Shown in pieces: positions 11,350-38,384 of a stretch of DNA of 64,000 bases. Within the stretch, counting starts at the first letter, position 1. Each line of letters opens with the position of its first letter. The stretch is taken from the NCBI GenBank assembly GCA_020048895.1, contig JAIFLV010000020.1, positions 1-64,000 of the forward strand, read 5' to 3'. The notes under the pieces were generated by a model. It was not told where the DNA came from. It searched no databases and saw nothing but the letters and a program-made list of their open reading frames with translations. This stretch comes from Rhodoferax sp. GTDB taxonomy: Bacteria; Pseudomonadota; Gammaproteobacteria; Burkholderiales; Burkholderiaceae_C. Both the position numbers and the translations under genes were made by a program.

Positions 11350-11372
11350 GATGTGGTTCTCCGGTAGGCGAC

Positions 11373-13445
11373 TCAGACGTTCGGACGGATCAGGATATTG
11401 CCCACCGCGTCAACCTCGCCGGTATGCCCGGGCAGGATCAAGGTGGTTGTATCCATTTGAGCGACGATGGCCGGCCCGGGAATGCGGTTGCCGGCAGCGA
11501 GCTTGCTGCGATCGTAGATGTTGGCCGGATGCTCTGCCCCTTCCACAAAGACAGTGGAGCGGTCAATCACGGCCTCGGAGGCATCTGCGCCGCCCTTTTC
11601 CAACTGCTCGGCACGTACTTTTGTTTCCGGCCCCTGGACGATGGCGCGCAAGCTGACCAACTCCTGTTCGGCATCGAGCGCGAAGGTATACAACTGGGTG
11701 TGCATGTCGTCGAAACGTTTGGCCACACCAGCGAGTCCGTTGGTCTCCAGAAAGGCGTGCGTCACATTAACGCTCAGACGCATGCCTTGTCCCTGGTAGC
11801 GCACGTCAAGCTGGTACTCCACACTTTGCTGGTCATCGGGCACGTTCTCAGCGACCAGTGAGCGTTTTGCAAGCGCTGTCAACTCGTCAAGAATGCCCAA
11901 CACCTCAGCACCGGACGTTTCCTTGAAACGACGAATGAAGGTGCGCGATGCCTCGTCGCGCAAACGTGTGGTGGCATCTCCGTAGGCGCAAAGCACGCCC
12001 GGACCCGGCGGGATGATGACGGGCCAGGATCCGGTAAGGCGACCCAGCGCGTTGGCGTGCAGGGGTCCTGCACCACCAAATCCGATCAGGGCAAAGTCGC
12101 GCGGATCGTAGCCCTGCTCAATTGAAACCAGTCGCAGCGCGCCAAACATGTTTTCGTTGACGATGTTGACGATACCCTCGGCGGCTTCCTGCAGTGTCTT
12201 GCCCAGCGCGTCCGCCACCGTTTTGACTGCCTTTTCAGCCAGTTGACGGTCGATCTTCATGTCCCCGCCAAGGCGCGACGATGCGGGCAAATAGCCCAGG
12301 ACCACATTGGCATCGGTCACCGTCGGACTCTCGCCGCCCTTGCCGTAAGCGGCAGGGCCAGGATCGGCGCCCGCGCTTTGCGGACCCACGCGCAGAGCCT
12401 TGGTCAACTCGGGAACATAGGCAATGGATCCGCCACCTGCACCCACCGTGCGAACGTCAATCGAGGGCGCCCGTACGGTCACGTCTGCAACCCGCGTTTC
12501 ACGTCGGGTCTGGGCCACTTCGCCCTGGATCAATGCGACGTCGGTGGAAGTACCGCCCATGTCGAAGGTCAGCAGATTCTTGAATCCAGACTGCCGTGCA
12601 ATCCACTGCGCACCTGTCACGCCACCAGCAGGGCCGCTCATCAAGAGCGCCACCGGGTTGTCGCGGGCTGCGTCTACAGCGGCCAGTCCGCCGTCGGAGC
12701 GCAACACATGGAGCTTGACGCCCGGCATCTTGCGCTCCAGTTCGGTGTAGAGATTCTGGATATAGCGCGACACCTTCGGGCGTACGTAGGAGTTCACAAC
12801 GGTGGTCTCGGTACGCTCATACTCGTACATCTCCGGGATCACCTCGGACGAGATCGACACCGGAATGCCGGGCAATGCTTCTTCGATGATCTCCCGTACC
12901 CGACACTCATGCGCACCGCTGGCATAAGCGTTGATCAGCGAGACCGTCATGGCCTCGATGCCCTGATCTTTCAAGCCAGCAAGACTGGCTCGCAAACTAT
13001 CTTCATTCAGTGGACTCACCACGTTGCCACGGGCATCTATGCGCTCATCCGCTTCTATGGTCAACTCCAGCGGAGCCAGCAATGGTCGCTTGTTGTAAAT
13101 TACCCAGCCGCCCAGTCCCCCCGGAACAAACGAGCGAGCAATTTGCAACACCTGACGGTAGCCCTTGGTGGTTACCAAACCGACCCGGGCACCTTTACCC
13201 TCCAGCACGGTGTTGGTCGCAACAGTGGTGCCGTGCATCACGTGGGTGATTTCTTTGGGATCAATATGATTTTGATCACACAGCTTGGCAATGCCATTGA
13301 GCACACCGATTGACGAGTCCGCCGGTGTCGATGGGACCTTGGCCGAATACGTCTCCCCGCTGCTTTCATTGATCAGCAGAAGATCGGTAAATGTTCCCCC
13401 TACATCGACCCCGAGTCGATAACTGGGTGCTACTTTAGATTTCAT
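11373..13445 (-). CDS. hydantoinase A / oxoprolinase family protein
   Basis: 690 aa; LGVDVGGTFTDLLL, HGTTVATNTVLEG, FDMGGTSTDVALI, GFGGAGPLHA. Confidence 0.92.
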   Translation of the reverse strand: MKSKVAPSYRLGVDVGGTFTDLLLINESSGETYSAKVPSTPADSSIGVLNGIAKLCDQNHIDPKEITHVMHGTTVATNTVLEGKGARVGLVTTKGYRQVLQIARSFVPGGLGGWVIYNKRPLLAPLELTIEADERIDARGNVVSPLNEDSLRASLAGLKDQGIEAMTVSLINAYASGAHECRVREIIEEALPGIPVSISSEVIPEMYEYERTETTVVNSYVRPKVSRYIQNLYTELERKMPGVKLHVLRSDGGLAAVDAARDNPVALLMSGPAGGVTGAQWIARQSGFKNLLTFDMGGTSTDVALIQGEVAQTRRETRVADVTVRAPSIDVRTVGAGGGSIAYVPELTKALRVGPQSAGADPGPAAYGKGGESPTVTDANVVLGYLPASSRLGGDMKIDRQLAEKAVKTVADALGKTLQEAAEGIVNIVNENMFGALRLVSIEQGYDPRDFALIGFGGAGPLHANALGRLTGSWPVIIPPGPGVLCAYGDATTRLRDEASRTFIRRFKETSGAEVLGILDELTALAKRSLVAENVPDDQQSVEYQLDVRYQGQGMRLSVNVTHAFLETNGLAGVAKRFDDMHTQLYTFALDAEQELVSLRAIVQGPETKVRAEQLEKGGADASEAVIDRSTVFVEGAEHPANIYDRSKLAAGNRIPGPAIVAQMDTTTLILPGHTGEVDAVGNILIRPNV

Positions 13446-13521
13446 AGGGTTTCCTTTGCTTTATTCCCGCCCGTGGGCACATGCCGGTGTTGGTTGTCTC
13501 ATCTTGATCGCTTTAATGGAG

Positions 13522-14721
13522 TTATTGAATCGCTGCGCAGTCGCGCAGCGATTCAATTCGTTTTGCATCGTAACCAAGCAAATTTCGCAAAACAGATTCA
13601 GTGTGCTCTCCGAGCATCGGCGGAGGCTCAAACGTGACATCGGACGTGCCACCGATCTTGACCGGATTGCCGGGCATCTGGACAGTCTCGCCGTTTTGCA
13701 GTTGAACGTCGACCACCATGTCCCGCGCACGAATCTGAGAGTCGTTTAGTGCTTGTTCGAAATTGTTGACTGGTGCACACGGAATGCGGGCATCCCGCAA
13801 CCTGGACAACCAATATTCGGCGGTATTACCCATTAACTCAGCCTGGATAATGGCGTTAATTTTTTCGCGATCTTCATATCGCGCGGGTTGCAACAAATAT
13901 CGTGGATCCTTCAGTTCCGGCGCCACAAGGACATCGCGGAACTTCTCGAAAAAGGCATCACCGATACAGGCAATAATGATGTAACCCGTCTGCGTCTGAT
14001 AGGCGTTATAGGGAACATGCACGAAATGGCTGTTACCGATTCGCTCGGGCACATGGCCCGACATCAGGTGCATCGTGGCCATATAGTTCAGGAGCGATAT
14101 CTGAACATCGAGCATAGAGATGTCAACGTGGCGCCCACATCCGGTAGAAGCACGTTCATGCAGCGCCGCTAAAACACCGATGGCTCCAAATACCCCTCCC
14201 CCCAAATCACCCACCGGGATACCCGAGCGCAAAGGCGCCTGATCCGGGAAGCCGGTAATCGACATGCCGCCCCCCATACCCTGAACAACTTGGTCAAATG
14301 CCGGGCGGTTCGGCTCGGGGCCGGTTTCGCCAAAGCCGGACACCGAACACGTCACAATGCGAGGGTTGATTTTTGCAAGTGTCTCGTGATCTATTTTTAG
14401 CCGTTTGGTGACTCCAACACTAAAGTTGTCAAACACCACATCGGCCTTACGCACCAGGTCATAAAAAATTTCACGACCGACATCCGACTTGAGGTCAATG
14501 CACACGCTTTCCTTGCCGCGATTGAGGGTGAGGAAATATGCGCCCATGCCCTGACGGGAATAGTCCGCACTGCCTGCCAACAATGCACGCGTTCCTTCGC
14601 CCGTTCCCGGTGGTTCGACCTTGATGGTTCTGGCACCCAAGTCTGTCAGCAACATGGCGCCATAGGGACCTGACAACATGTGTGTCAAGTCCAGCATTAA
14701 TATCCCATCAAGTGATTTCAT
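13522..14721 (-). CDS. CaiB/BaiF family CoA transferase (copy 2)
   Basis: LDLTHMLSGPYGAMLLTDLGARTIKVEPPGTGE, DVVFDNFSVG. Confidence 0.92.
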   Translation of the reverse strand: MKSLDGILMLDLTHMLSGPYGAMLLTDLGARTIKVEPPGTGEGTRALLAGSADYSRQGMGAYFLTLNRGKESVCIDLKSDVGREIFYDLVRKADVVFDNFSVGVTKRLKIDHETLAKINPRIVTCSVSGFGETGPEPNRPAFDQVVQGMGGGMSITGFPDQAPLRSGIPVGDLGGGVFGAIGVLAALHERASTGCGRHVDISMLDVQISLLNYMATMHLMSGHVPERIGNSHFVHVPYNAYQTQTGYIIIACIGDAFFEKFRDVLVAPELKDPRYLLQPARYEDREKINAIIQAELMGNTAEYWLSRLRDARIPCAPVNNFEQALNDSQIRARDMVVDVQLQNGETVQMPGNPVKIGGTSDVTFEPPPMLGEHTESVLRNLLGYDAKRIESLRDCAAIQ

Positions 14722-14770
14722 GTTCCCTGAGTCCGTGGACGAGCTTGCGTTGTTTCAGCCGTTCATCTTT

Positions 14771-14786
14771 AGCAATTTTCTTGCCA
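14771..14786 (-). promoter_or_regulatory. sigma54 promoter (TGGCAAG-AAAA-TTGCT on minus strand)
   Basis: Matches TGGCACG-N4-TTGCW with GG-N10-GC spacing; TGAAACA motifs at 14877-14883 and 14898-14904. Confidence 0.7.
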
Positions 14787-14956
14787 CCATTGGAATGCTT
14801 CAAGGAATGCGGGAAGCGGGCATCTACCGGGGGTTTGACAAACCTTAGCATCTTCACCAGCTCAGCGAAACAAATTTGAAACAGTTCCAGCATAGAGTGA
14901 AACACGAACAATTCATGCGCTTGATCAGCACTCAGAGGTGTGACTGTGCTCAACCA

Positions 14957-15610
14957 CTATTTTGTTGTCTGAAAACGGTTACGCTGAACCCATTGTGTGG
15001 ACGGCAGGTAGATCCATGGGCGTTCGGTCCGATCGCGTTGTTGAAATGCAAGGATGCGGTCGTTGAGTTTGAGTGTCAGCGCCACGGGGTCGAGTCCATC
15101 TAACAGCATGTCTCTCGCTTCGGCCTGTATCTCAAACGGGTATTCAATACCATCCTGCGAGACCAGCACGCAACGTTCCAGGTCAACTGTCAACGTGGAG
15201 GGTATCTGAGTGTCAGCCAGTTTCCCGATCACCGCTTCGGAAAGCACCACCGGAAGCAGCCCATTTCGAATGCAATTGTTGTAAAAAATGGCTCCGAAAC
15301 TTGGAGCAACCAGAACCCGAAAACCGTACTCCTTCAGCGCCCAGACCGCATGCTCACGCGATGAGCCACAACCGAAATTGACTCCTGCGAGCAGGATGGT
15401 AGCCTTCGTGAAGTTCGGCTGATTGAGTATGAAATCTGGATTTAGCGTTCGCCCACCAGGCTCTATGTAACGCCACCCTGCAAACAGCCCTTCTCCAAGT
15501 CCGGTCTTCGACACCTGCTTCATCTCACGCGAAGGGATGATGGCATCGGTATCGATGTTGATGCGCAGCAAAGGCGCTGCCACGCCACGGTGTATCCGGA
15601 GTTTATCCAT
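14957..15610 (-). CDS. aconitase-family hydratase small subunit (LeuD-like)
   Basis: NFGCGSSREHAVWALKEYGFRVLVAPSFGAIFYNNCIRNGLLPV. Confidence 0.9.
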   Translation of the reverse strand: MDKLRIHRGVAAPLLRINIDTDAIIPSREMKQVSKTGLGEGLFAGWRYIEPGGRTLNPDFILNQPNFTKATILLAGVNFGCGSSREHAVWALKEYGFRVLVAPSFGAIFYNNCIRNGLLPVVLSEAVIGKLADTQIPSTLTVDLERCVLVSQDGIEYPFEIQAEARDMLLDGLDPVALTLKLNDRILAFQQRDRTERPWIYLPSTQWVQRNRFQTTK

Positions 15611-17030
15611 GGGCAATGCCTCCAACCACATCGCGCGGATCGGCGAGATACCCGGTCAGGGCGCTCGCAGCAACGGTCAGCGGACTGGCAAGATGGCTGC
15701 GAGTCTGCGGGCCCTGACGGCTCTCAAAATTGCGGTTGGTGGTACTCACAACACGTTCACGCAGGCCAAAACTCTCTCCGCCGGCAAAAAAACACATGGA
15801 GCAGCCCGACTCGCGCCACTCGAACCCGGCATCGATAAAAATCTGGTCAAGCCCCTGTGCCTCTGCGGCGCGCTTGACCTGCGACGATCCGGGCACGCAA
15901 ATGGCCTTGACTCCGCGGGCAACTCGCCGCCCGCGCAGAAGTTGCGCCGCTGCTTGCAGATCCGATAGCCGGCTATTGGTACACGAGCCGATAAAGGCAG
16001 CATTGATCGGAACACTGGTCAGACTTTGACCTGGTTGCAGGTCCATATACGCTAGCGCACGCTCCATGGCTGTACGTGAATGGCTGTCGGTTTCAAGACC
16101 CGGATCAGGAACGTTCGCATTGATGGACACTGCGTGCTGCGGACTTGTTCCCCACGTCACCATCGGGCCAATCGTCTGGCTGTCGACAACAATCTCGCGG
16201 TCAAAGTGTGCGCCATCGTCGGTCTGCAACGTACTCCAGTGCTTCAAAGCCTGAGTCCACATAGCGCCCTTGGGTGCGAAAGGCCGCCCTTGCAGGTAGT
16301 CGAACACTGCTTGATCCGGCGCAACCAAACCGGTAAATGCAGAAAACTCCACCGCCATGTTGCACAGCGTCATGCGTGCCTCGACAGTCAAATTCCGCAC
16401 CGCAGAACCGGCAAACTCAACAGCATGTCCGGCTGCCCCGCTGGCCGAATATTGGCCAATCAACCACAGCATCATGTCCTTGGCGGTGACGCAGTCCGAC
16501 AAAACCCCCTCAAAACTGACCCGCATGGACCGTGGCTTGGCCACCCGCAGTGTCTGGGTGGCAAGCGCATGCTCAGCTTCCGACGATCCGATTCCCCACG
16601 CCAACGCGCCGAAAGCGCCTTGGGTACAGGTGTGGCTGTCGGGACAGACCACCGTAGCACCCGGCAGAACAATGCCCTGCTCCGGCGAGATCACATGCAC
16701 GATCCCCTGATTGGGGTCATTGACGTCGAATAGCCGGATACCTGCGCGGCCTGTTGTCTCACGAGTGGTTCGAATGAATTCTTGACCCCCCGGCATAAGA
16801 GTCTTGTCGCTACGGCCCGGCAAGGTATCGACAATGTGATCCATGGTGCAGAAAGCAAGCTCGGGGTGGCGTACCCGACGGCCATCATTTTCCAGTGTCT
16901 GCAGGGCGACACTGCCCGTCCTCTCATGCAAAAATACACGATCAATGTGCAAAAGACTTGTGCCAGCGTCCAGATCGGCCACGACATGCTGCATCCACAG
17001 CTTTTCGAACAAGGAACAAACGGGCATCAC
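15603..17030 (-). CDS. aconitase-family hydratase large subunit (LeuC-like)
   Basis: VVCPDSHTCTQGAFGALAWGIGSSE, FIGSCTNSRLSDL. Confidence 0.92.
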   Translation of the reverse strand: MMPVCSLFEKLWMQHVVADLDAGTSLLHIDRVFLHERTGSVALQTLENDGRRVRHPELAFCTMDHIVDTLPGRSDKTLMPGGQEFIRTTRETTGRAGIRLFDVNDPNQGIVHVISPEQGIVLPGATVVCPDSHTCTQGAFGALAWGIGSSEAEHALATQTLRVAKPRSMRVSFEGVLSDCVTAKDMMLWLIGQYSASGAAGHAVEFAGSAVRNLTVEARMTLCNMAVEFSAFTGLVAPDQAVFDYLQGRPFAPKGAMWTQALKHWSTLQTDDGAHFDREIVVDSQTIGPMVTWGTSPQHAVSINANVPDPGLETDSHSRTAMERALAYMDLQPGQSLTSVPINAAFIGSCTNSRLSDLQAAAQLLRGRRVARGVKAICVPGSSQVKRAAEAQGLDQIFIDAGFEWRESGCSMCFFAGGESFGLRERVVSTTNRNFESRQGPQTRSHLASPLTVAASALTGYLADPRDVVGGIAHG

Positions 17031-18223
17031 GCTTCTTCCTGCTTTGCGACGACACCACTCTGAACCAACTCGGCTATCTCGGCCAGACTCAAACCGGCAT
17101 CCTGTAGCACTTCATGGGTATGCTGCCCTGCCTGGGGAAGATCACGGTACACACCGAGGCGTTGCCCCTGCATCTCAATCGGAAGGGAGGGCAGCTTTGT
17201 CTTTCTTCCGTCTACAAGTGTGATCTCTATCAGCCCATTGGCGGCATTCAAATGCCTGTCGTCAAACAACTCCTCGGGCTTTGTGACGGGTGCAAACGGC
17301 AGGCCAATGGCTTCCAGTTGCGCCATCAGTTCTGCTTTGGTCAGCTGACGAAACCGCTCGCGCAATACGCCCATGATGCGCTCGCGCTGTTTTACACGCT
17401 CACCATTTTGATCCAGGGAACGATCATTCGCAAACTCCTGTAACCCGAAGGCTTCACAAAATTTGCGCCACTGCGTGTCGCTCACTACACCAATGAACAC
17501 CTGATCAATGTCGGCGGTTTCGAAAATATCGTACACGGCCCATGCCGACAGCCGCTGCGACATGGGCGGAGCGGGCTTGCCCGTCACAGCATACTGAGCC
17601 ATGTGCTGCCCTACCAGAAATGCAGTCGTCTCAAACAGCGAGGTCTTCACCTCCTGCCCGAGGCCAGTGCGGTGGCGTTGCTCTAATGCAGCAAGAATGC
17701 CGATGACGCCAAACATGCCGCCAGTGACGTCAATAACCGACGCCCCTGCGCGCATGGGCTTGCCAGGAAGCCCCGTCATGTAGGCCAAACCGCCCATCAT
17801 TTGCGCGACTTCATCGAGTGCGGTTCGTTGCTCGTACGGGCCTTTCAGGAATCCCTTGGCCGAACAGTAGATCAGGCGTGGATGACGAGCAGACAGCGTC
17901 GCATAGTCCCAGCCACTTTCCGCCATGCCACCCGGACGAAAATTCTCAATGAACACGTCGGCTCTATCGATCAGCTTGTTAATCGTCTTTTTCCCGGCCT
18001 CTGCCGTGGTATCGATGCACAGACTACGCTTATTGCGGTTGTACATCGAAAAGTAACCGGCACCAGCACCGGAAAGGCGGCGCGTATTGTCCCCTTTGAG
18101 GGGCTCCACTTTGACAACATCCGCTCCCAGATCAGCCAAAATCACACCCATAGTTGGCCCCATCACCATGTGTGTGAATTCAACCACCTTGATGCCATCC
18201 AGCGGCCGCGAAATATTTCCCAT
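17027..18223 (-). CDS. CaiB/BaiF family CoA transferase (copy 1)
   Basis: VVEFTHMVMGPTMGVILADLGADVVKVEP, DVFIENFRPGG. Confidence 0.92.
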   Translation of the reverse strand: MGNISRPLDGIKVVEFTHMVMGPTMGVILADLGADVVKVEPLKGDNTRRLSGAGAGYFSMYNRNKRSLCIDTTAEAGKKTINKLIDRADVFIENFRPGGMAESGWDYATLSARHPRLIYCSAKGFLKGPYEQRTALDEVAQMMGGLAYMTGLPGKPMRAGASVIDVTGGMFGVIGILAALEQRHRTGLGQEVKTSLFETTAFLVGQHMAQYAVTGKPAPPMSQRLSAWAVYDIFETADIDQVFIGVVSDTQWRKFCEAFGLQEFANDRSLDQNGERVKQRERIMGVLRERFRQLTKAELMAQLEAIGLPFAPVTKPEELFDDRHLNAANGLIEITLVDGRKTKLPSLPIEMQGQRLGVYRDLPQAGQHTHEVLQDAGLSLAEIAELVQSGVVAKQEEA

Positions 18224-18689: not shown

Positions 18690-19367
18690 ATGATATTTTA
18701 TGATTCCTTGAATTTCCTCCACATGCTCTTTTTTGTTTACTGGCTTGGTGGAGACCTCGGCACCTTCTACGCATCACGGTTTGTGCGCAATCCGAAGCTT
18801 TCCGTAGACGCAAGAGTAACCGCCCTGAAAATTATGGCGGGCGTCGATATGGCTCCACGCATTTGTATGCCAATGATTTTTGGTTTAGGAATCCATCTGG
18901 CATATTTGGAAACTGGTCTTGCGATTTCAAAGTCCGCTGTTGTTTTGGTTTGGTTAATTACTTTGTTATGGCTTGGGTTGGTGTTCGCGGTACACAAAAA
19001 GGCTGGTGATCCTTTGGGCGCCAAGCTGGCGAAATTTGATATCGGTTTTCGTATAGTTCTTATTGCTGCAATGGTGGCACTTGCCATTTATGGCTTTGCC
19101 ACCGGAGAGGTTGTTAGATTTGACTGGATAGGGATAAAGCTATTGATCATGGCAGCGCTTGTGGCTGCCGGATTGATGATCAGGGTCAATCTGATGCCGT
19201 TCGCGCCAGCGTTTGGAAAGCTGGTAGCCAACGGACCGACGCCCGATATCAATCAGGAAATCACGCAATCCCTGCGAAGTTGCCTGCCCTGGGTCTACCT
19301 TATCTGGATTGGACTGATTGTTAATGCAGCGATTGGTCTCAATATGTACAACCTTTTCCGGGGTTAG
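18690..19367 (+). CDS. small polytopic membrane protein (CopD/HemJ/DUF2269-like)
   Basis: LHMLFFVYWLGGDLGTFYASRF; paralog of CDS 5657-6328. Confidence 0.75.
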   Translation: MIFYDSLNFLHMLFFVYWLGGDLGTFYASRFVRNPKLSVDARVTALKIMAGVDMAPRICMPMIFGLGIHLAYLETGLAISKSAVVLVWLITLLWLGLVFAVHKKAGDPLGAKLAKFDIGFRIVLIAAMVALAIYGFATGEVVRFDWIGIKLLIMAALVAAGLMIRVNLMPFAPAFGKLVANGPTPDINQEITQSLRSCLPWVYLIWIGLIVNAAIGLNMYNLFRG

Positions 19368-19374
19368 CAGCAAT

Positions 19375-20022
19375 ATGAAATCACTGGACCTGAACTTTTC
19401 CCCTTACGCATCGCGTGTTCGCATTGTTGTAAGGCTCAAACATTTGCCAGTGACCTTTGAATATCCGCAGTTAGGCCTAAAAACACCGGAGTTCAAGGCT
19501 GCTTTTCCACTCGGAAAAATTCCAATACTCGAATTGGACGATGGTACCTACATCCCCGAATCTTGGGCGATCATGGAGTATCTGGAGGAAATGTTCCCTG
19601 AGGTCCCACTAAGTCCCACCGATCCCTTGGCGCGCGCTCAAATGCGTGTTCTTGGGCGCTGCGCAGACCTGCATCTGGGCCCGGCATTGTTTCCTTTGTT
19701 CGTGCAATTAAAACGGCCGCAAAGAGATGACGCTGCCATTGCACTGCAAATTGACGCCACTCGGAATGAACTTGCCAAGTTGGGCCGGTTGCTGGAGGAA
19801 TACGGACTGCCCGACTCCCGTTCGCTGCACCTGGGCGACATCGCGCTTGTGCCAACGATCTACTACGTGACCGCAGTACTGCCATTATTTGGTGTCGAAG
19901 ATCCGCTTGCCACTGCTCCACTCGTTGCCCGCTGGTGGTCACTGGTCTGTGATGTTGCCGTCATTGCGCAGACCTTGAAAGAAATTGATGATGGGTTTCG
20001 TGGTTTTCTCAAGCAGGGTTGA
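19375..20022 (+). CDS. glutathione S-transferase family protein
   Basis: LDLNFSPYASRVRIVVRLKHLPVTFEYPQL...GKIPILELDDGTYIPESWAIMEYLEE; start ATG 19375. Confidence 0.88.
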   Translation: MKSLDLNFSPYASRVRIVVRLKHLPVTFEYPQLGLKTPEFKAAFPLGKIPILELDDGTYIPESWAIMEYLEEMFPEVPLSPTDPLARAQMRVLGRCADLHLGPALFPLFVQLKRPQRDDAAIALQIDATRNELAKLGRLLEEYGLPDSRSLHLGDIALVPTIYYVTAVLPLFGVEDPLATAPLVARWWSLVCDVAVIAQTLKEIDDGFRGFLKQG

Positions 20023-20121: not shown

Positions 20122-23079
20122 ATGAAGTCTTCCATCATTCTTTTCGGAATGGTACAGGCACTGCGACTTGCAGCAACTGTGTATCCGGAGTTTTCTCAGC
20201 GACTCAAGCAGCGCGACATTTCCGTGCAATTCAAGTTGAAGGACAACACGGAAGGCCGCTGGATTCGAATCGAAAATGGAAAGATAAATTCCAGCGCAGG
20301 CGTACTCGAAAGCCCGGGCTTGGCCATTGTTTTTCAGAATAGCGCCGTCGCAGAAGAGTTTCTGACCCCGCCGTTTAATCAATTGACACGGATTGATGCG
20401 GCGAAGAATTTCAAGGTATGTATTGAAGGTTCAGACGAGTTGGCTGTCTGGTTTATGACCACACTTAACCGAATGCAGACGCTAGGCTGGAAAAGTGGCA
20501 CCGATGTCGGCGATGGTGTCGTTCGTTATACCAGTGGCACAAATGGAGGGCCGTTATTTGTCTATGTTAAAGACGGCAAAATCCTGCGAATCACTCCCGT
20601 CGAATTCGACGAGGATGACGCTCCTTCTTGGTCCATCAACGCCCGGGGCAAGACATTCACACCACCCAGACGCACTACGTTGGCTGCCCACGGTATGGCG
20701 CAAAAGTCGATGGTGTATTCAAAGGACCGGCTTTTGTATCCAATGAAAAGGGTGGATTTTGACCCAGATGGAAATCGAAATGTACAAAACCGCGGGATAT
20801 CCGAATTCGTTCGCATCTCATGGGAAGAAGCGCTTGACATCGTTGCAAAGGAAATACAACGCGCCAAACGCAAAGGCCCTGGGGCAGTTCTGGTGTACCA
20901 CGGAGGCCACCACCAGTGGGGAAATCTTGGGCATTATTTAAGCGCTTTTAACCGATTTTTTAATCTTATCGGCTGTAGTCGTGTGCACAACAACCCCGAC
21001 AGTTGGGAAGGCTGGTATTGGGGCGCGATGCATCACTGGGGCAACAGCATGCGCCTCGGTGTGCCGGAGTCCTATGGGACGGTTGAAGACTGCCTCAAGG
21101 AAACGGAGATGATCGTATTCTGGTCCAGCGACCCTGATGCCACCTATGGTTACGAGGGAACGATACGACGTGAATGGGCCAAACAGCTTGGTATCAAGAT
21201 GGTCCATATTGATCCCTACCTTAACCATACAGCAGCCTTGCTGGGCGGTAAATGGATCGCGCCAAAGCCAGGTACTGATGCTGCCTTCGCGCAAGCGCTT
21301 TGCTATATCTGGATCACAGAAAATCTGTATGACAAATCATTTGTAGAAAATCGAACTACGGGGTTTGAGGAGTGGAAAGATTATGTTCTCGGGACGATAG
21401 ACGGAGTTCCGAAGACTCCTGAGTGGCAAGAAGCGGAAACGGGCGTCCCAGCCCGGGAAGTGCGCGCCCTGGCAAGAGAATGGGGGCGCAAGAAGACCTA
21501 TCTCGGCGTGGGAAGTTGGGGTTGTGGTGTGGGAGGCGCCTGTCGTTCGCCAACGGGTGCGCAGTGGGCGAGGATGATGACGATTCTGGGCGCCATGCAG
21601 GGATTCGGAAAGCCAGGCGTCAATTTCGGCAATTTGCAGTTTGGAGCGCCGCACGATTTCACTTTCTATTTCCCCGGATATGCAGAGGGCAGTATGTCGG
21701 GAGAACTTCAGTTCAGCGCGAATTCGGCAAACAATTATCAGCGCATGCCCCACATCGTGACCATGAACTCCGTCAGACAGAGCATTCACCGCATGCAACT
21801 GCCTGAAGCGATCCTGAACGGCCAATCATTTGGCTACCTGACCGACATAACCTCTCAGCAAGGTCAATTTTTCAAGTTCGGATATCCATCGCCAGGGCAT
21901 GCAAAAATCGAAATGATTTACAGATACGGCAGTTCATCTTTGGGAACGACGATGGATTCCAATCGCTGGATAAAAATGTACCAGTCAGAAAATTTGCCAT
22001 TCGTGGTGAATCAGTCGGTTTGGAACGAAGGCGAGACACGGTTCGCAGATATTATCTTGCCGGCATGTACCACGTTCGAGCGCTGGGACATAGGCGAGTA
22101 TTACAACGTCGGCGCTGGCTATGTGCACCATATGTATCAGATGGTGAACCACCGCGTCATATCGATGCAGCATAAATGCATTGAACCGTTGGGCGAATCC
22201 AAATCTGACTACGATATCTTTCTTGCATTAATGCAGCGGATGGGTATGGGTGCCCTGTATTCGGAAGGAGGGAATTCGGAACTGGACTGGTGCAAGCGCG
22301 TTTTTGATTCCTCTGATTTATCCAAGCACACATCCTGGAAAAACTTTCTGAAGAAGGGCTACTTTGTTGTTCCCTCTCCAGCGGAATCTGCGCGTGCACC
22401 AACAGCACACCGGTGGTTTTACGAAGGTCGGCCCAAGGATGTCCCGGAGCCCTATCCCTTGCCGTCGGAATACGTGAATAACTTCGGTTCGGGCTTGCAA
22501 ACACCTTCGGGCAAGTATGAATTTATTCCTACTACGCTGGGCAGGATCGATGACCCTGAACGCCCGCCGCTCAACAAGTATATGCCCACCTTTGAGGATG
22601 CCGCAACCGATGAGCGGTTAAAGGCTTTCCCCTTGCAACTGCTGACACCACATTCGCGCTACACGTTCCATCTGATGGGTGACGACCGGGGCAGCACGGT
22701 CATGGATATCGACGACCACCGCGTGTTGGTCGACGGGCATTACTACCTGGTAGCAAGAATCAGCCGGGCGGATGCGAAGGCGCGAGGGGTCCAGCATGGT
22801 GAACTGATTCGCCTGTGGAACAACCGAGGCTCAGTGGTCTGCGCAGCGCAGGTCACGGACCGGCTGCGACCGGGGGTTGTCAGCGTTTCTGCATCATCTG
22901 CCCAGTACCGCCCCGCCGGCGTGCCGGGCAATTCGACCGATCTTGGCGGTTGCATCAATATGCTGTGCACCAGCAAGCCACTGACAAAGCAAACCAGCGG
23001 CATGGCGCCCAACACAACGCTGATTCAGTTCGAAAAATGGCTGGGTGTCGATACCTGGCAACGCGAGGAGGTCAAGTGA
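20122..23079 (+). CDS. molybdopterin oxidoreductase (pyrogallol transhydroxylase/resorcinol hydroxylase-like large subunit) with N-terminal SCP2-like domain
   Basis: 985 aa; residues ~1-120 SCP2-like (FKLKDNTEGRWIRIENGKI...AEEFLTPP...CIEGSDELAVWFMTTLNRM), remainder molybdopterin-type (NNPDSWEGWYWG, MIVFWSSDPDATYGYEG); no N-terminal Cys cluster for Fe4S4. Confidence 0.8.
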   Translation: MKSSIILFGMVQALRLAATVYPEFSQRLKQRDISVQFKLKDNTEGRWIRIENGKINSSAGVLESPGLAIVFQNSAVAEEFLTPPFNQLTRIDAAKNFKVCIEGSDELAVWFMTTLNRMQTLGWKSGTDVGDGVVRYTSGTNGGPLFVYVKDGKILRITPVEFDEDDAPSWSINARGKTFTPPRRTTLAAHGMAQKSMVYSKDRLLYPMKRVDFDPDGNRNVQNRGISEFVRISWEEALDIVAKEIQRAKRKGPGAVLVYHGGHHQWGNLGHYLSAFNRFFNLIGCSRVHNNPDSWEGWYWGAMHHWGNSMRLGVPESYGTVEDCLKETEMIVFWSSDPDATYGYEGTIRREWAKQLGIKMVHIDPYLNHTAALLGGKWIAPKPGTDAAFAQALCYIWITENLYDKSFVENRTTGFEEWKDYVLGTIDGVPKTPEWQEAETGVPAREVRALAREWGRKKTYLGVGSWGCGVGGACRSPTGAQWARMMTILGAMQGFGKPGVNFGNLQFGAPHDFTFYFPGYAEGSMSGELQFSANSANNYQRMPHIVTMNSVRQSIHRMQLPEAILNGQSFGYLTDITSQQGQFFKFGYPSPGHAKIEMIYRYGSSSLGTTMDSNRWIKMYQSENLPFVVNQSVWNEGETRFADIILPACTTFERWDIGEYYNVGAGYVHHMYQMVNHRVISMQHKCIEPLGESKSDYDIFLALMQRMGMGALYSEGGNSELDWCKRVFDSSDLSKHTSWKNFLKKGYFVVPSPAESARAPTAHRWFYEGRPKDVPEPYPLPSEYVNNFGSGLQTPSGKYEFIPTTLGRIDDPERPPLNKYMPTFEDAATDERLKAFPLQLLTPHSRYTFHLMGDDRGSTVMDIDDHRVLVDGHYYLVARISRADAKARGVQHGELIRLWNNRGSVVCAAQVTDRLRPGVVSVSASSAQYRPAGVPGNSTDLGGCINMLCTSKPLTKQTSGMAPNTTLIQFEKWLGVDTWQREEVK

Positions 23080-23951
23080 TGGGAAAGAAATGGAACATGG
23101 TTGTCGATGTCGCGCGCTGTGATAACTGCCGCAACTGTTTTCTGGCGACCAAAGACGAGCATATTGGGAACGATTTTCCGGGTTATGCTGCGGCGCAAGC
23201 ACCGGCGGGGCACCGCTGGGTGGACATTCAGAAAAAGGAGCGCGGGAGCTGGCCGATTATTGAATCGAACTACTTCCCTGTGATGTGCAATCACTGCGAT
23301 AACGCACCTTGCATGCAGGCAGCCAAAGACGGTGCCGTGCGGAAACGCGATGACGGAATCGTCATCATCGACCCCGTAAAGTCCCAGGGACAGAGACAGA
23401 TTGTCGATGCCTGCCCCTATGGCGCAGTATATTGGAACGAAGAATTGAATATCCCGCAGGCCTGGATATTCGATGCGCACCTGCTCGACCAAGGTTGGAA
23501 AAAGACGCGAGTGGAGCAAGTCTGCCCGGTTAACGTGTTCCAATCGATCAAGGTTGAAGATGGAGATATGCGCGGTATTGCTGACCAACAGGGGCTAGAG
23601 GTTCTGCAACCGGACCTGCGAACCAGTCCACGCGTTTATTACAAAAATCTGCACCTGATCACCAAGTGTTTCGTCTCCGGATCGGTGACGGTGGATATTG
23701 ATGGCGTCGAGGAGTGCGCTGAAGGTGCAGAGGTTATCTTGAGCCAAGTTGGAAAAGAGATTATGCGAGCCACTACCGATATGTTTGGCGAATTCAAAAT
23801 CGATAGACTTGAAAAACAAAGTGGCGTATATGACCTGGACCTAAGCTTAGGTCCGAATAAGAGCACCCCACTGAAGTTTGAACTGGGTGACGACAGTCAG
23901 TATCTTGGCCTAATCAAACTCCTGAACCAGCGGCAGAGTGTCGGCGTTTAG
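23079..23951 (+). CDS. 4Fe-4S ferredoxin-type subunit with C-terminal beta-sandwich-like domain (transhydroxylase small-subunit-like)
   Basis: CDNCRNCFLATKDEH, CNHCDNAPCMQAAKDGA; C-terminus GSVTVDIDGVEECAEGAEVIL...FGEFKIDRL resembles Cna-B; TGATG overlap with large subunit. Confidence 0.82.
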   Translation: MGKKWNMVVDVARCDNCRNCFLATKDEHIGNDFPGYAAAQAPAGHRWVDIQKKERGSWPIIESNYFPVMCNHCDNAPCMQAAKDGAVRKRDDGIVIIDPVKSQGQRQIVDACPYGAVYWNEELNIPQAWIFDAHLLDQGWKKTRVEQVCPVNVFQSIKVEDGDMRGIADQQGLEVLQPDLRTSPRVYYKNLHLITKCFVSGSVTVDIDGVEECAEGAEVILSQVGKEIMRATTDMFGEFKIDRLEKQSGVYDLDLSLGPNKSTPLKFELGDDSQYLGLIKLLNQRQSVGV

Positions 23952-24905
23952 TGGTTTCCATCCCTTGGGCAAACCAGCCTCTGGAACCATGCCGTACAGA
24001 GGTTCTCCGGGCAGGCCCAACCTAAGACATTCGCGGGCTGCAATGAGTCTGTCGATATTTACCCCAGTGTTCAAGCCCATACTTTCGAACATGAAGACAA
24101 GGTCCTCAGTCACGACGTTGCCCGATGCTCCGGGCGCATAGGGACAACCGCCCAGACCAGCGAGAGAGCTATCAAAAGTGCGCACACCCACGTCATAGGC
24201 TGCCAGGCAGTTCGCCAGACCCAGGCCTCGTGTGTTGTGCATGTGCGCCGCGCCTGATTTATCGCCAATCGCAGCTCGTACTTTGTCGAACAAACGCCGA
24301 ACCTGCGCCGGGTTTGCCATACCTGTGGTGTCTGACAGGCCGGACTCATCGGCACCAGCGATGATGCATTTTTTAGCCAACCAAACGACATCTTCTTCAG
24401 GTACAACCCCCTGAAGCGTGCAGCCAAATGCGGTAGATATCCCAGCCTCCACCTTGACGCCGGGTGCAATCGCATCGCGCAGGGCAACAATGGCGCGCAC
24501 TTCCTCAACCATTTCCTCTGGCGACTTGCGCACATTTGCCAACGAATGTGCAGCGCTTGCAGAAACCGGAATTGTGAGCTTATGAACCCCTGCTTTCAAC
24601 GCGTTTTCAGCACCACGCCGATTTGGCACCAGCGCCATCACAGTGACTCCTCGGTGAGTAAGTGCATGCTGCACCACCTCCACCGCGTCGGCCATCTGTG
24701 GCAGAGTCTTCGCCGGCACGAATGAACAAACCTCTATCTCACGCAATCCAGCTGCGACAAGGCTGTCAATCCATTGACACTTATCGGCAGTACGCATCGT
24801 GGCTTTTATCGATTGCAGACCATCGCGCGGCCCAACTTCGCTAATCAAAATGTCAGGAACGGACAAGTTCATGGGCATGCTTTTTTGTAACGTCACGGGG
24901 CTCAC
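23910..24905 (-). CDS. HMG-CoA lyase-like (DRE-TIM family) acyl-CoA lyase
   Basis: EVGPRDGLQ, AGLGGCPYAPGASGNVVTEDLVFM signature. Confidence 0.92.
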   Translation of the reverse strand: MSPVTLQKSMPMNLSVPDILISEVGPRDGLQSIKATMRTADKCQWIDSLVAAGLREIEVCSFVPAKTLPQMADAVEVVQHALTHRGVTVMALVPNRRGAENALKAGVHKLTIPVSASAAHSLANVRKSPEEMVEEVRAIVALRDAIAPGVKVEAGISTAFGCTLQGVVPEEDVVWLAKKCIIAGADESGLSDTTGMANPAQVRRLFDKVRAAIGDKSGAAHMHNTRGLGLANCLAAYDVGVRTFDSSLAGLGGCPYAPGASGNVVTEDLVFMFESMGLNTGVNIDRLIAARECLRLGLPGEPLYGMVPEAGLPKGWKPLNADTLPLVQEFD

Positions 24906-27209: not shown

Positions 27210-27803
27210 CTATTTCGACGGTGGGGTGAGCGTTCCGGCGGGAACACCAAGAATTTGGTTCAGTTCAATTTTGTTGCCATCCGCATCCCGCACGGCACTG
27301 AACATCACAGGGATCACGCCACCATCAGGTGCTGGATAGTCGACTCGCGTCGGTTCGGTTTCCACCCGAATGTGCGGTGTGGCTGCAATCTTGGGCCAGC
27401 GGGTGCTCAAGTCCGCCACATTGATCACCATAATCATCTTGACCGGCCCTGTCTGCACCACCGGCGGTTCGGGTTCTGCTGCCGGGGTCAGACGCTGCAA
27501 CAAACCCAGCGCACCGATGAAGGTATCGTTAGCCCGCAAGAGTACCAAACGCATGGTCGGCGCGGTGGGCTTGCCGTCGCTGCCCACGGGACCACCCATG
27601 CGTTGATCGTAGATTGGCTTGAGTCCCAATGCATCGCGATACAACGCCAGGGATTTGTCGATGTCGCGCACGATAAGGGTCGTGCGTCGAATATCCACCG
27701 GGGTGCGTTCATCGGGTGGCACCGGTTCCGCACCCACCAGCGAACTAGTGAGTCCACAGACCATCGCAAGCGTGACCAAGCGTAACAACAAGGGTATTTT
27801 CAT
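27210..27803 (-). CDS. exported VOC/glyoxalase-superfamily protein
   Basis: Signal peptide MKIPLLLRLVTLAMVCGLTSSLVGA; RRTTLIVRDIDKSLALYRDALGLKPIYD. Confidence 0.8.
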   Translation of the reverse strand: MKIPLLLRLVTLAMVCGLTSSLVGAEPVPPDERTPVDIRRTTLIVRDIDKSLALYRDALGLKPIYDQRMGGPVGSDGKPTAPTMRLVLLRANDTFIGALGLLQRLTPAAEPEPPVVQTGPVKMIMVINVADLSTRWPKIAATPHIRVETEPTRVDYPAPDGGVIPVMFSAVRDADGNKIELNQILGVPAGTLTPPSK

Positions 27804-27956
27804 CAAGCATCTCCACAATGGTACGGAACAAGTCACTGTCACATTCGCCGTGCGCACGGCGCAAAGTCGCAGCGTGCACCAACAGACCTGACGTATAAAC
27901 AAGAAACGTGCCGAAGTACCACCTGCCGGCCCCCATAGAAATCCATACGCTTAAAT

Positions 27957-27972
27957 GCGCACAAATCTTGCT
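27957..27972 (+). promoter_or_regulatory. possible sigma54 promoter (GCGCACA-AATC-TTGCT)
   Basis: Good -12 element but the -24 GG reads CG; precedes 28018 operon; no adjacent TGAAACA site seen. Confidence 0.3.
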
Positions 27973-28017
27973 TATTTGCTTGGTACAGACCAATAACCTT
28001 TTCGCGCCAACCGTGAG

Positions 28018-28329
28018 ATGCCCATGACAGCCTACATGATCGTAACTGCACATATCAAGGACCGAGACACCTTTATTTCCGGATACGGCAAGGCTGCTGC
28101 GGCGCTGGTGGCGCAATTCGGCGGCACCTATGTGTTACGTGGACCGGGTGTCACTATGCTGGAGGGAAACTTCGGTCGAGACGCGTCGATGGTGATTTCA
28201 GAATGGCCCGACAAGGCCACGGCGCAAGCCTTCTGGGATTCGCCCGAATACCAGCAAGTCAAAAAACTGCGTGACGGTATTGCGGACTGCCAGGTACTCC
28301 TGATTGAGGCGCCGAAGATCAATGGTTGA
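28018..28329 (+). CDS. DUF1330 (EthD-like) family protein
   Basis: AYMIVTAHIKDRDTFISGYGKAAAALVAQFGGTYVLRG. Confidence 0.8.
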   Translation: MPMTAYMIVTAHIKDRDTFISGYGKAAAALVAQFGGTYVLRGPGVTMLEGNFGRDASMVISEWPDKATAQAFWDSPEYQQVKKLRDGIADCQVLLIEAPKING

Positions 28330-28786
28330 TATTGTCAAGCGCACGACGCTGATGGTGCGCAGCGCCGAAGTCGCAGCGCATTGGTACGAGTCCGTGTTTG
28401 GCATGACGCGCTGGATGGACGTGCCATTTACGCTGTCTGGCACCCAACTCGCCGCTGGAAGCAAAGGTGATCAGACCCGACTGGTCATCATGAAAGCGGT
28501 TGACGACGTCATCGGCATGATCGGATTGCTCGAATGGGTAGAACCAAAAGCCGATGCGCCGACCGAAATTCCGCAACGGATTACTTTTGGCGCACCGATA
28601 TTTGTGATCGCTGCAACGGACTGCGTGGCTACCACCGAACGCGCCCGCAAGGCGGGCTCACACATCCACTGCGAACCGCACGACTGGACCGTCACTGGCG
28701 CGGATGGGCGGGTCAAGGCAATGATAGGGTCGAGTTTTTTTGATCTCGATGGCTACTTCTTTGAAGTGAACCAGGCTGTCGCATGA
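28322..28786 (+). CDS. VOC/glyoxalase-superfamily protein
   Basis: KRTTLMVRSAEVAAHWYESVFGMTRW...FFDLDGYFFEVNQ. Confidence 0.8.
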   Translation: MVDIVKRTTLMVRSAEVAAHWYESVFGMTRWMDVPFTLSGTQLAAGSKGDQTRLVIMKAVDDVIGMIGLLEWVEPKADAPTEIPQRITFGAPIFVIAATDCVATTERARKAGSHIHCEPHDWTVTGADGRVKAMIGSSFFDLDGYFFEVNQAVA

Positions 28787-29865
28787 ACATGCTTGGCGAA
28801 TTTGATGCCAAGGTGTGTGGCAAAGAAATTCACGATGGCAGTAACTTCCAGTGGCGCGTAGCACGTGCTCCACAGGGAGTACTGCTGCCCGACGATTTTT
28901 CCTGGGTGGAGTCTCCAACACCCGAACCGGGCCCTGGTGAAGTGCTGCTCAAGACACATTATCTTGGCCTCGCCCCGGTGATGCGCATGTACATGCAGGG
29001 TGCAGTTGCAGCAGGTGAGACGCCGCTTCGAGTAGGTGATCTGATCCATGGACGTGGCGTTGCACAGATCATGAAGTCGCGTCACTCCGACTGGAGCGAA
29101 GGTGACATGGTCCAGGGCCAGATTGGCTGGCAAACATACAAGGCCAGCGCCATGACGGCCGCCGAGAAGATGTTTCGGGTGCGTCATCACGGATTGCCTG
29201 CACTCTACGCCTGCAAGACCCTTGGCATGACCGGTTTGTCAGCCCATGCGGGTCTCTTTGCATGTGGTGAACCACGTGCCGGCGATACCCTGGTACTTTC
29301 AGGAGCTGCGGGTGGCGTAGGTTCCATCGTCAGCCAATTGGCTGCGAACATTGCCGGGTGCCGCGTGATTGGCATAGCTGGTGGCCCGGAAAAATGTACA
29401 TTGATCCGCCAGCAAGGCTGTGAATCCGCCATTGACTACAAGTCGGACGACCTGCAACAACGGCTCAAGGATTTTTGCCCCGATGGCATCGATTGCTATT
29501 TTGACAATGTCGGCGGCGAAACTCTGGCCGCCGTATTGGAGCAGTTGGCTCTGAAGGCGCGCATTGTGCTGTGTGGCTCCATCTCGGAGTACGCTCGGGC
29601 GCAGCCGTTCGGCCTGAACAACTACACGCGCCTGCGTAGCAAGGATGCACGCATGCAAGGTTTTTTTGTGTACAACCACCTCGATAGATGGGAGACCGTA
29701 ATGGCAGAACTTGCAGGATGGATACGCGACGGGCAGCTATGCCCCAGGCATGATGTGACGAGGGGGTTTCAGAATATGCCAAAGGCTCTTGCCCGACTCT
29801 ACGCCGGACTGAATCAAGGTGCCGCCATTTGTGACGTGCGTGGTGAACCGGAGCATTGGGCATGA
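28783..29865 (+). CDS. MDR-family NADP-dependent oxidoreductase (copy 1)
   Basis: SGAAGGVGSIVSQLAANIAGCRVIGIAGG, YFDNVGGETL. Confidence 0.9.
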   Translation: MNMLGEFDAKVCGKEIHDGSNFQWRVARAPQGVLLPDDFSWVESPTPEPGPGEVLLKTHYLGLAPVMRMYMQGAVAAGETPLRVGDLIHGRGVAQIMKSRHSDWSEGDMVQGQIGWQTYKASAMTAAEKMFRVRHHGLPALYACKTLGMTGLSAHAGLFACGEPRAGDTLVLSGAAGGVGSIVSQLAANIAGCRVIGIAGGPEKCTLIRQQGCESAIDYKSDDLQQRLKDFCPDGIDCYFDNVGGETLAAVLEQLALKARIVLCGSISEYARAQPFGLNNYTRLRSKDARMQGFFVYNHLDRWETVMAELAGWIRDGQLCPRHDVTRGFQNMPKALARLYAGLNQGAAICDVRGEPEHWA

Positions 29866-30308
29866 GCGGCGTGCGCTTTCAGCGCGGTAACCATGTCGTC
29901 GCAAATCTGGACCTTGCACTGACTTTTTACCGCGACGTGCTGGGTTTTGACGTCACATTCATCTTGCCGCACAACCCCGAGAGCTATTCGTATCCGGTAT
30001 TCGATATTCCCGCGGCCGCCCAGATGCGCTTTTGTGTGTTGTCCACCGCGACCCAGGAGCGGGTGATGGCGCTCACCGAAATCACCAACGTCCCACTCGC
30101 TCCCGTGCCACACCCACGCCGATCTGCCATCGTGCTGGAAGTGGATGATCCGGATGCCGTGATGGCACAAGCGCAGGCGCTTGGCCTGAAGGTACATGAC
30201 GAAGCGGTACTCCTTACCAAGGATGGTCGTAGGGGTCGGGAAATAGGTATTGTTGACTTTGATGACAATCTGGTAGTGATTTACCAGATCACGGGGGTGG
30301 CGCAATGA
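29862..30308 (+). CDS. VOC/glyoxalase-superfamily protein
   Basis: GNHVVANLDLALTFYRDVLGFDVTF; ATGA overlaps on both sides. Confidence 0.8.
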   Translation: MSGVRFQRGNHVVANLDLALTFYRDVLGFDVTFILPHNPESYSYPVFDIPAAAQMRFCVLSTATQERVMALTEITNVPLAPVPHPRRSAIVLEVDDPDAVMAQAQALGLKVHDEAVLLTKDGRRGREIGIVDFDDNLVVIYQITGVAQ

Positions 30309-31621
30309 ACACCACCGCGTGGCCAGCACCCCGTTCCGCCTGGACTATGGTGATTTTGCTTACCATTGCCTACGTCTTTTCCTACGTCGATCGTTCGATT
30401 CTGGGCTTGCTGATCGAACCGATCAAGGCAGATATTCATTTGACCGATGAGCAGATCGGTTACCTCATCGGCCCGGCATTCGCGTTGTTTTATGCAACCA
30501 TGGGATTGCCGCTGGGCTGGCTGGCAGATCGCAAGCGGCGCACCTGGATCGTTGCGGCTGGAGTCGCGCTATGGTCATTGGCCACGGCAGCCTCCGGACT
30601 CGCCCGCAGCTTTGGAGCATTGTTTGTCGCACGTATGAGTGTCGGCATTGGCGAGGCAACGTTGAGTCCCTGTGCCATGTCGATGATTGGCGACAGCTTT
30701 CCTCCGGAGCGACGCGGCAAACCGGTGGCCTTCTATTCAGCCGCTTTGGGACTGGGAGCAGGCATCGCTTCCTTGATCGGCGCGGCTGTGTTGACATGGG
30801 CCAAGACTTCCGAAGGGATCACGTTGCCAATAGTTGGTGCGGTAAAGCCATGGCAGTTTGCTTTTTTCGTGGTGGGTCTGCCAGGTGTACTCATCGCAGT
30901 GGCAATGCTGTTTGTGGCAGAGCCTCCGCGCCAGGGATTCAAAGCCGCGGACGGCCCTGTTGCGGCTGGATTTGCCAACGGCCTGGGCTATGTCAAGAAC
31001 CATATTTGGGCTTTTCTAGGTCTGTTTTCCATGGTGTGCGTTATGACCATCACCGCTTATAGCCATGGTTTCCTGGCGAGCGCCTTTGTTCGCAAGTTTG
31101 CCTGGGAAGTAAAAGACTTTGCGCTTGTGAACGGCCTGATGACACTGGCCATTGGTCCGCTAACTGTCTGGAGCGTAGGAGTGTTTTGCGACCGCTGGCG
31201 TAACGCCGGACAGACCGATGCACCATTTCGCCTGTTGGCGATGGGCTTTGTGCTCATGGTCGCCAGTTCGTCACTGGCACTGCTGATGCCATCGCCATTG
31301 ATGGCTTTTGTACTGCTCGGTTTGAGTACCATGGGCATTGGAACGGTCACCGCAACCGGCATCATTTCGCTGCTGGACATCACGCCGTCGCCGGTGCGCG
31401 GCCAGCTCGTAGCGCTCTACTATATGGTCATCAGCATCGCCGGCCTGGGGCTGGGCCCCACTTCTGTGGGCTGGTTATCAACCCGGATCTTTGGTGAATC
31501 GCAATTGCACCTGGCAGTGGCGGCAGTTCCGGTGCTATATGGTTTGATTCCATTGCTGCTGATTCCCATGATTCGCCGCCAGTACTTGGCCCAGTTGCAA
31601 ATTACGAACCAAGCGCCTTGA
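30305..31621 (+). CDS. MFS transporter (second copy in cluster)
   Basis: 438 aa; YVDRSILGLLIEPIKADIHLTDEQIGYLIG, LPLGWLADRKRR. Confidence 0.92.
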   Translation: MNTTAWPAPRSAWTMVILLTIAYVFSYVDRSILGLLIEPIKADIHLTDEQIGYLIGPAFALFYATMGLPLGWLADRKRRTWIVAAGVALWSLATAASGLARSFGALFVARMSVGIGEATLSPCAMSMIGDSFPPERRGKPVAFYSAALGLGAGIASLIGAAVLTWAKTSEGITLPIVGAVKPWQFAFFVVGLPGVLIAVAMLFVAEPPRQGFKAADGPVAAGFANGLGYVKNHIWAFLGLFSMVCVMTITAYSHGFLASAFVRKFAWEVKDFALVNGLMTLAIGPLTVWSVGVFCDRWRNAGQTDAPFRLLAMGFVLMVASSSLALLMPSPLMAFVLLGLSTMGIGTVTATGIISLLDITPSPVRGQLVALYYMVISIAGLGLGPTSVGWLSTRIFGESQLHLAVAAVPVLYGLIPLLLIPMIRRQYLAQLQITNQAP

Positions 31622-31635
31622 CAGTGTGCAGGTCA

Positions 31636-32670: not shown

Positions 32671-32704
32671 GTCCGGTCTCCTGTGCCTACAGACAGTCGC
32701 CCGT

Positions 32705-33592: not shown

Positions 33593-33702
33593 ATGGGATT
33601 TCCTTGTTGAAGTGGGTCACTGACCCGGTTGCTACCCGGCATCAAGGTCAGAAGGCAGAGCCTTGGCAAGCGCCAAGACTGGTGAAACATCGCACGCCAT
33701 CA

Positions 33703-33718
33703 AGCAAGACGCTTGCCA
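33703..33718 (-). promoter_or_regulatory. sigma54 promoter (TGGCAAG-CGTC-TTGCT on minus strand)
   Basis: GG-N10-GC, upstream of DUF1838 gene; TGAAACA direct repeats at 33782-33788 and 33803-33809 (21-bp step). Confidence 0.72.
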
Positions 33719-33829
33719 GCATCCTTTTGGGCGGCAAATGCCAAGTCCAGGATGCATATCAACTGGCCCGGACTCGCGCGATGAAACACCTATTGAGTCG
33801 AATGAAACAATCCTGGAACAGGAACATAT

Positions 33830-34795: not shown

Positions 34796-34838
34796 GCTTT
34801 AAACCTTTCCCGATTGACAATGCACCGCAGGCAAGTGA

Positions 34839-35222: not shown

Positions 35223-35242
35223 TTGGTCAACTCCAGGTGATT

Positions 35243-36670: not shown

Positions 36671-36685
36671 GTTTGTGGCTCCTCA

Positions 36686-38275: not shown

Positions 38276-38300
38276 ATCAGGGGTTCAGGGTTATGAGGTT

Positions 38301-38354
38301 CATCAAAAATGATAGCTGTCTACGCAATCTGGATAAGCGCTGGAGGGCAAAAAT
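38301..38354. repeat. intergenic repeat family copy 3
   Basis: CATCAAAAATGATAGCTGTCTACGCAATCTGGATAAGCGCTGGAGGGCAAAAATG. Confidence 0.5.
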
Positions 38355-38384
38355 GTTCAAGGAATCTGAAGCGAAAATGTCTCA

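Follow-up and report, generated by a model that had tools for sequence, protein, structure and literature searches.

The window analysed here, a stretch of 64,000 nucleotides of Rhodoferax sp. (contig JAIFLV010000020.1, positions 1 to 64,000), contains at 20122–23951 on the forward strand a pair of genes for a molybdenum enzyme with two subunits. It belongs to the resorcinol-hydroxylase (RhLS) branch within the transhydroxylase family, and its large subunit has an N-terminal SCP2-fold domain that is common to all sampled members of this branch. Resorcinol-hydroxylase-type enzymes are already known, and the window enzyme is an unusual variant of them, not a new kind of enzyme; new here are a separate clade of 20 members with a remodelled presumed pocket, and the loss of an iron-sulfur (FeS) cluster from the small subunit after the domain was gained. 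The best explanation overall, which we favour at somewhat better than even confidence, is a cytoplasmic polyphenol hydroxylase with molybdenum bis(molybdopterin guanine dinucleotide) (Mo-bisMGD), whose SCP2 domain would dock it to the membrane or to quinone.

The SCP2-fold domain of the large subunit

The large-subunit gene (20122–23079, forward strand as are all genes and features of the enzyme) is one uninterrupted frame from ATG to stop encoding 985 residues, and the SCP2-like N-domain, residues 1–120 (20122–20481), is thus in frame with the molybdoenzyme, as an earlier note on this DNA had read it. The domain is in frame in all of the top 80 relatives whose sequence reaches the N-terminus, and the GC content at the three codon positions is alike in the N-domain (0.51/0.40/0.55) and the core (0.55/0.45/0.60), indicating that the N-terminal stretch is real coding sequence. 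Pfam and NCBIfam scans of the window protein alone do not call SCP2, the cut-off of PF02036 not being reached, and a plain sequence search of the PDB with the N-domain gives no significant match. A Pfam scan of 50 relatives finds PF02036 weakly in 12 (best E 0.0019) and Alkyl_sulf_C in 6, and a profile comparison with true SCP2 proteins aligns residues 32–109 in register with an E value of 2.5e-4, at an HHalign probability of just 43%. The AlphaFold2 model, made from a 50-sequence alignment, has a predicted local distance difference test (pLDDT) value of 81 and contains helices at residues 3–20 and 22–29, strands at 33–39, 45–51, 54–59 and 67–71, helices at 74–81 and 87–95, a strand at 99–103 and a helix at 105–120. 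All of the top 36 Foldseek matches to this model in the PDB are SCP2-fold proteins (best E 2.3e-6), and the matched proteins include alkylsulfatases (C-terminal domain), AF1534, UbiJ and SCP2 itself. The weak family matches, the profile match and the structure comparison, in which the SCP2 topology is recovered, together show that residues 1–120 adopt the SCP2 fold and belong to that superfamily by fold, in agreement with the earlier reading of the first ~120 residues as SCP2-type.

Four residues of the N-domain, R46, A93, K95 and G103, are invariant in the clade of domain-bearing proteins. They are not a hydrophobic set and could pack against the core, and standalone SCP2 proteins align weakly, both of which would suit a structural or assembly module that serves dimerisation, subunit docking or passive membrane contact and has no ligand that matters. 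We regard such a role as unlikely, as the domain begins with an apolar helix and the full SCP2 topology is retained across phyla, and a lipid-binding cavity is typical of SCP2 domains (PMC6747719). UbiJ uses its SCP2 domain to bind hydrophobic intermediates of ubiquinone synthesis (PMC6747719), and by analogy the domain of the window enzyme probably docks it on the membrane or the quinone pool, as the favoured explanation supposes.

Distribution of the fusion

Since the first search of relatives used the full protein, the search was repeated with the core alone in 50 genomes, in 369 genomes of the window's class and in 398 genomes from the phylum to which a Bacillota relative belongs. In these core-only searches a domain-profile check finds the domain at identities of at least about 56% and not near 50% or less, and both the domain-bearing and the short type coexist in several genomes. 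In a tree built by a quick method, with the Shimodaira–Hasegawa-like approximate likelihood ratio test (SH-aLRT) as the only support measure, the SCP2-like domain is present in 86 of 86 sampled members of one clade, ranging from Bacillota to Pseudomonadota; a single branch (SH-aLRT 100) separates them from the neighbouring short-type group that holds AhtL. The window protein carries the N-domain and groups in this clade (SH-aLRT 100) with the RhL-type protein of Aromatoleum anaerobium LuFRes1, which places it in the RhL branch. The A. anaerobium locus, a plasmid copy (L055), is used throughout as the stand-in for RhLS, and its large subunit has the SCP2-like domain as well. The fusion, sought elsewhere, is therefore found throughout the sampled clade; it is a trait of the whole RhL-type subfamily and not special to this genome. 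The literature searched mentions neither an SCP2 domain in RhL nor the FeS cluster loss described below, with the key primary RhLS papers outside its coverage, so that its silence on the domain is weak evidence of novelty.

On plasmid pCB3126_1 of Sinorhizobium terangae (L188:2100-6547) the N-domain and the core lie about 1.5 kb apart, in another frame. This copy was considered as a natural domain-free member and rejected, as both parts exist and the gene is broken.

The earlier note took the fusion as a sign of a hydrophobic substrate. Resorcinol is water-soluble and the copy of the resorcinol degrader A. anaerobium LuFRes1 carries the domain, so the fusion alone is no argument for such a substrate and the claim is not supported as it was argued. 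The domain might nevertheless recruit a hydrophobic substrate, as is thought for the C-terminal SCP2-like domain of alkylsulfatases, which are the closest folds found by Foldseek; the presumed pocket in the window's clade seems less polar, and a fusion in a single polypeptide suits local delivery of a substrate. This is doubtful in view of the presence of the domain in all 86 clade members, including the one from A. anaerobium, which points to a domain that was inherited and not gained along with a new substrate.

Catalytic core and active site

Residues 133–985 (20518–23076) constitute the predicted Mo-bisMGD catalytic core of the AhtL/RhL family (4v4c_A; Pfam PF21423, PF00384 and PF01568). 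Residues 133–975 match AhtL of Pelobacter acidigallici (4v4c_A) with an E value of 3e-271, and PF21423 (AhtL-like domain 1) is matched with 7e-30. The core scores about 905 bits against AhtL and about 228 bits against dimethyl sulfoxide (DMSO) and trimethylamine N-oxide (TMAO) reductases, so that the alignment to the Pelobacter transhydroxylase, suggested as a check in the earlier note, is far above that to any of these reductases. At the start of the core no FeS cysteine motif of the DmsA type is present in the sequence, and hence no FS0 cluster, which agrees with the description of a molybdopterin oxidoreductase that lacks the usual N-terminal cluster.

The active site was compared in an alignment of 103 family members. 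The motif NNPDSWEGWYWG (20989–21024) aligns onto D174-S175-W176 of AhtL, with S294 (AhtL S175) as the presumed molybdenum ligand, flanked by D293 and W295. An invariant active-site histidine is found as H263 (AhtL H144; 20908–20910), and the two tyrosines as Y520 (AhtL Y404; 21679–21681) and Y667 (AhtL Y560). All six AhtL residues are retained in the window's clade, and the Asp-Ser-Trp stretch had therefore been placed correctly. In the segment V663-G664-A665-G666-Y667 (22108–22122), which holds the second tyrosine, C557 of AhtL is replaced by Val and A665 is inserted. H271-Y272 (20932–20937) correspond to AhtL Y152-R153; the position of R153 is Tyr in most of the SCP2-bearing clade and Trp in many others, and His271 is found solely in the window's clade. 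Homology over the whole core, the active-site His, Asp-Ser-Trp and two Tyr, and an adjoining FeS small subunit with a C-terminal sandwich place the protein in the AhtL/RhL family, and the core match together with that of the small subunit to 4v4c_B upholds the subunit plan of transhydroxylase and resorcinol hydroxylase that had been proposed.

The small subunit and its FeS clusters

The small subunit (23079–23951, 290 residues) belongs to the AhtS/RhS family (4v4c_B, E 1e-72); its ATG at 23079 shares one base with the stop codon of the large-subunit gene and is preceded by a strong ribosome-binding site, AGGAGG. FeS motif I (23118–23138) has C14, C17 and C20, with T24 at the fourth position (AhtS C23), and motifs II and III (23286–23414) contribute C70, C73, C78 and C112, the ligands of one retained [4Fe-4S] cluster. 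Motif IV (23463–23525) is degenerate, with AhtS C126, C129 and C145 replaced by W129, D132 and V145 and C149 alone kept. The ferredoxin-type cysteine motifs noted earlier are thus present and incomplete, since eight cluster cysteines are left of the 12 in AhtS, or of the 16 canonical four-cluster ligands, enough for two [4Fe-4S] clusters as compared with three in AhtS.

By the ferredoxin pairing rule, in which the first three cysteines of a motif are joined by the last cysteine of the partner motif, AhtS C23, C126, C129 and C145 are the ligands of one cluster. This cluster is lost in 70 of 97 small subunits. All of these have Trp for C126 and Asp for C129, and replacements of C23 and C145 are frequent as well; in the window's clade all four ligands are gone. 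Of the 70 subunits, 65 retain every one of the remaining eight cysteines, and five have one Cys-to-Ser change. In five Rhodospirillales-type small subunits (L021, L036, L037, L041 and L045) the second cysteine of motif I, which belongs to a retained cluster, is replaced by Ser. On the tree the loss falls on a single branch (SH-aLRT 99) inside the domain-bearing clade. All 12 cysteines are present in 11 domain-bearing members, which come from Bacillota, Chloroflexota and deltaproteobacterial-type genomes. This indicates that the domain was gained first, and that a single loss of one [4Fe-4S] cluster followed, in the common ancestor of the proteobacterial members sampled. Compared with the four-cluster protein PsrB (2vpw_B), the window subunit keeps the ligands of two clusters only, those of motifs I+IV and II+III, which are non-adjacent in the canonical plan, and the lost cluster sits between them.

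The loss would cost nothing to a true transhydroxylase, which moves a hydroxyl group between phenols with no net oxidation and in which neither the FeS clusters nor the SCP2 domain would have to do with electron export; the core and the catalytic residues are also the same as in AhtL. An enzyme of that kind is quite improbable, as the window protein groups with the RhL-type protein of A. anaerobium and not with AhtL, the whole clade has an aromatic residue, Tyr or another, in place of R153 of AhtL, and the window genes that were scanned include no recognisable phloroglucinol-pathway gene. Within the favoured explanation of a hydroxylase that exports electrons, the order of the two events would suit an SCP2-like domain that brings the molybdenum enzyme its ubiquinone, or a related lipid quinone, and takes over electron removal, making part of the FeS relay dispensable. 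This specific role is a long shot; it would explain why the domain was gained first and why the cluster lying between the others was then lost once across the proteobacterial members.

The C-terminal part of the small subunit (23589–23948) is a Cna-B/transthyretin-like (prealbumin-type) sandwich, as the earlier note had said. CarboxypepD_reg is matched by this domain in 40 of 40 members, and the AlphaFold2 model (pLDDT 94) has 4v4c_B as its top Foldseek match (E 3e-10), with a CnaB2 domain among the matches. The sandwich is an old family feature that AhtS has too.

The clade of the window protein and its proposed function

The window protein and 19 others form a clade of 20 members (SH-aLRT 100) on a long stem (0.52), from metagenome-assembled genomes labelled as gamma- and alphaproteobacteria, Chromatiales, Steroidobacteraceae and one Acidobacteriota. 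As compared with AhtL the clade has His for Y152, Val for C557, Thr for F468, Val or Leu for W354, and the inserted Ala. In the AhtL crystal structure positions 152, 153, 354, 468 and 557 presumably line the substrate pocket, and since clade-specific substitutions fall among these positions the window's clade probably has a larger and less polar pocket. The genome of the window has two haem-copper oxidases and looks like that of an oxygen-respiring organism; no NarG is found over the threshold. No intradiol dioxygenase is found in this genome, which is about 91% complete, nor any close homologue of the BqdL-like E1 that lies beside the A. anaerobium locus. The apparent lack of recognisable versions of both known hydroxyhydroquinone routes is suggestive only, because of this degree of completeness. 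We do not favour a reading in which the window enzyme catalyses the resorcinol step in the known pathway, given that neither of these two proteins is found, and the pocket substitutions and the lack of a recognised hydroxyhydroquinone pathway make a different substrate likely for the clade.

From what is known of the family, the enzyme would be cytoplasmic, with Mo-bisMGD ligated by Ser294, and would put a water-derived hydroxyl group on an electron-rich polyphenol, the two electrons being passed to the respiratory chain. The SCP2 domain might hold this soluble enzyme at the membrane by docking to lipid or quinone. Enzymes of the window's clade would act on a larger or less polar phenol than resorcinol, as one step within a catabolic island that has many VOC enzymes, CoA transferases and lyases. 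Several points weigh against this picture. The SCP2-like domain is also found in relatives from Bacillota, Chloroflexota and sulfate reducers, so that the respiratory role is a proposed one; only the two subunits, and no other neighbours, are conserved across the window's clade; the pocket positions are presumed; and missing pathway genes may lie in the gaps of the genome. The SCP2 fold in every sampled RhL-type enzyme and the later loss of one specific cluster offer a concrete, testable idea of how oxygen-independent phenol hydroxylases pass electrons to the respiratory chain, and with its remodelled presumed pocket, in a genome that looks oxygen-respiring, the window's clade may represent a water-using hydroxylase for another class of polyphenols.

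Neighbouring genes

Two genes just upstream and in the same direction may share an operon with the subunit genes, judging from spacing only. The first (18690–19367) encodes a small membrane protein with no Pfam match, and the second (19318–20022) is glutathione S-transferase-like (Pfam GST_N/GST_C) and is not conserved beside the subunit genes of relatives. The protein of 18690–19367 resembles that of 5657–6328, a weak DUF2269 match, and both have a Trp-x-Gly-Gly motif behind a His; a relative also adjoins the enzyme genes in another locus (L012). VOC, Rieske, DUF1838 and DUF2269-like genes recur near the loci of the window's clade in a scattered way, and inferring the substrate from conserved neighbours was rejected for the lack of conservation already mentioned. 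A scan for promoters and terminators gave sites no more frequent than chance.

The catabolic island (9463–18223 and 23910–24905), whose genes were named from reading the sequence, contains a hydantoinase/HyuAB-like pair, two CaiB-type CoA transferases, a LeuCD-like isomerase pair and an HMG-CoA-lyase-like gene, with a second lyase, named in the same way, at 41902–42825. Several VOC-family proteins, a DUF1838 protein (32705–33592), a FAD_binding_4 oxidase and an alpha/beta hydrolase are encoded in 27210–40123, a set that is suggestive of extradiol ring cleavage. A PrpR_N sigma-54 activator is encoded at 43106–45085 with an amidohydrolase gene just downstream, and 60687–61385 reads as a transposase (RayT-like) of the type associated with repetitive extragenic palindromic (REP) elements.

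Comparison with known enzymes

The RhL-type locus of A. anaerobium is 42% identical to the window in the SCP2-like domain, 59% in the core and 53% in the small subunit, and like the window it has the FeS CxxC pair replaced by W..D. The window's clade differs from it by H271 for Tyr, V663 for Cys, T574 for Trp and the inserted A665, and by the loss of all four ligands of the missing cluster. The A. anaerobium locus is flanked by E1- and E3-type 2-oxoacid-dehydrogenase genes and a sigma-54 regulator gene, an E2 gene having been scanned in a close relative (L049), whereas no such E1/E2/E3-type neighbours are recognised at the window. This set of neighbours presumably resembles the published resorcinol cluster, and the resorcinol hydroxylase activity of A. 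anaerobius is reportedly membrane-associated. RhL is listed as a cytoplasmic enzyme with Ser-ligated molybdenum that respires anaerobically with electrons from resorcinol, and PgtL/AhtL of Pelobacter as fermentative (PMC10100899).

The core, the residues H144, D174, S175, W176, Y404 and Y560 and the C-terminal sandwich of the small subunit are shared with AhtLS of P. acidigallici (4v4c), but AhtL has no SCP2 domain, and in place of the 12 cysteines with three [4Fe-4S] clusters and the Arg153 of AhtLS the window enzyme has eight of the 12 cysteines and Y272. DMSO and TMAO reductases and BisC likewise have a Ser-ligated MopB core, and the DorA type is also without an N-terminal FeS motif (PMC10100899), but they are far less similar, as the bit scores given above show, and have no SCP2 domain. 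The SCP2-fold proteins (the C-terminal domain of SdsA1, AF1534, UbiJ/UbiT and human SCP2) have the same fold and order of elements as the N-domain of the window enzyme at an identity below 20%, and differ from it in that the window's domain gives no Pfam SCP2 match and is placed at the N-terminus of a molybdoenzyme.

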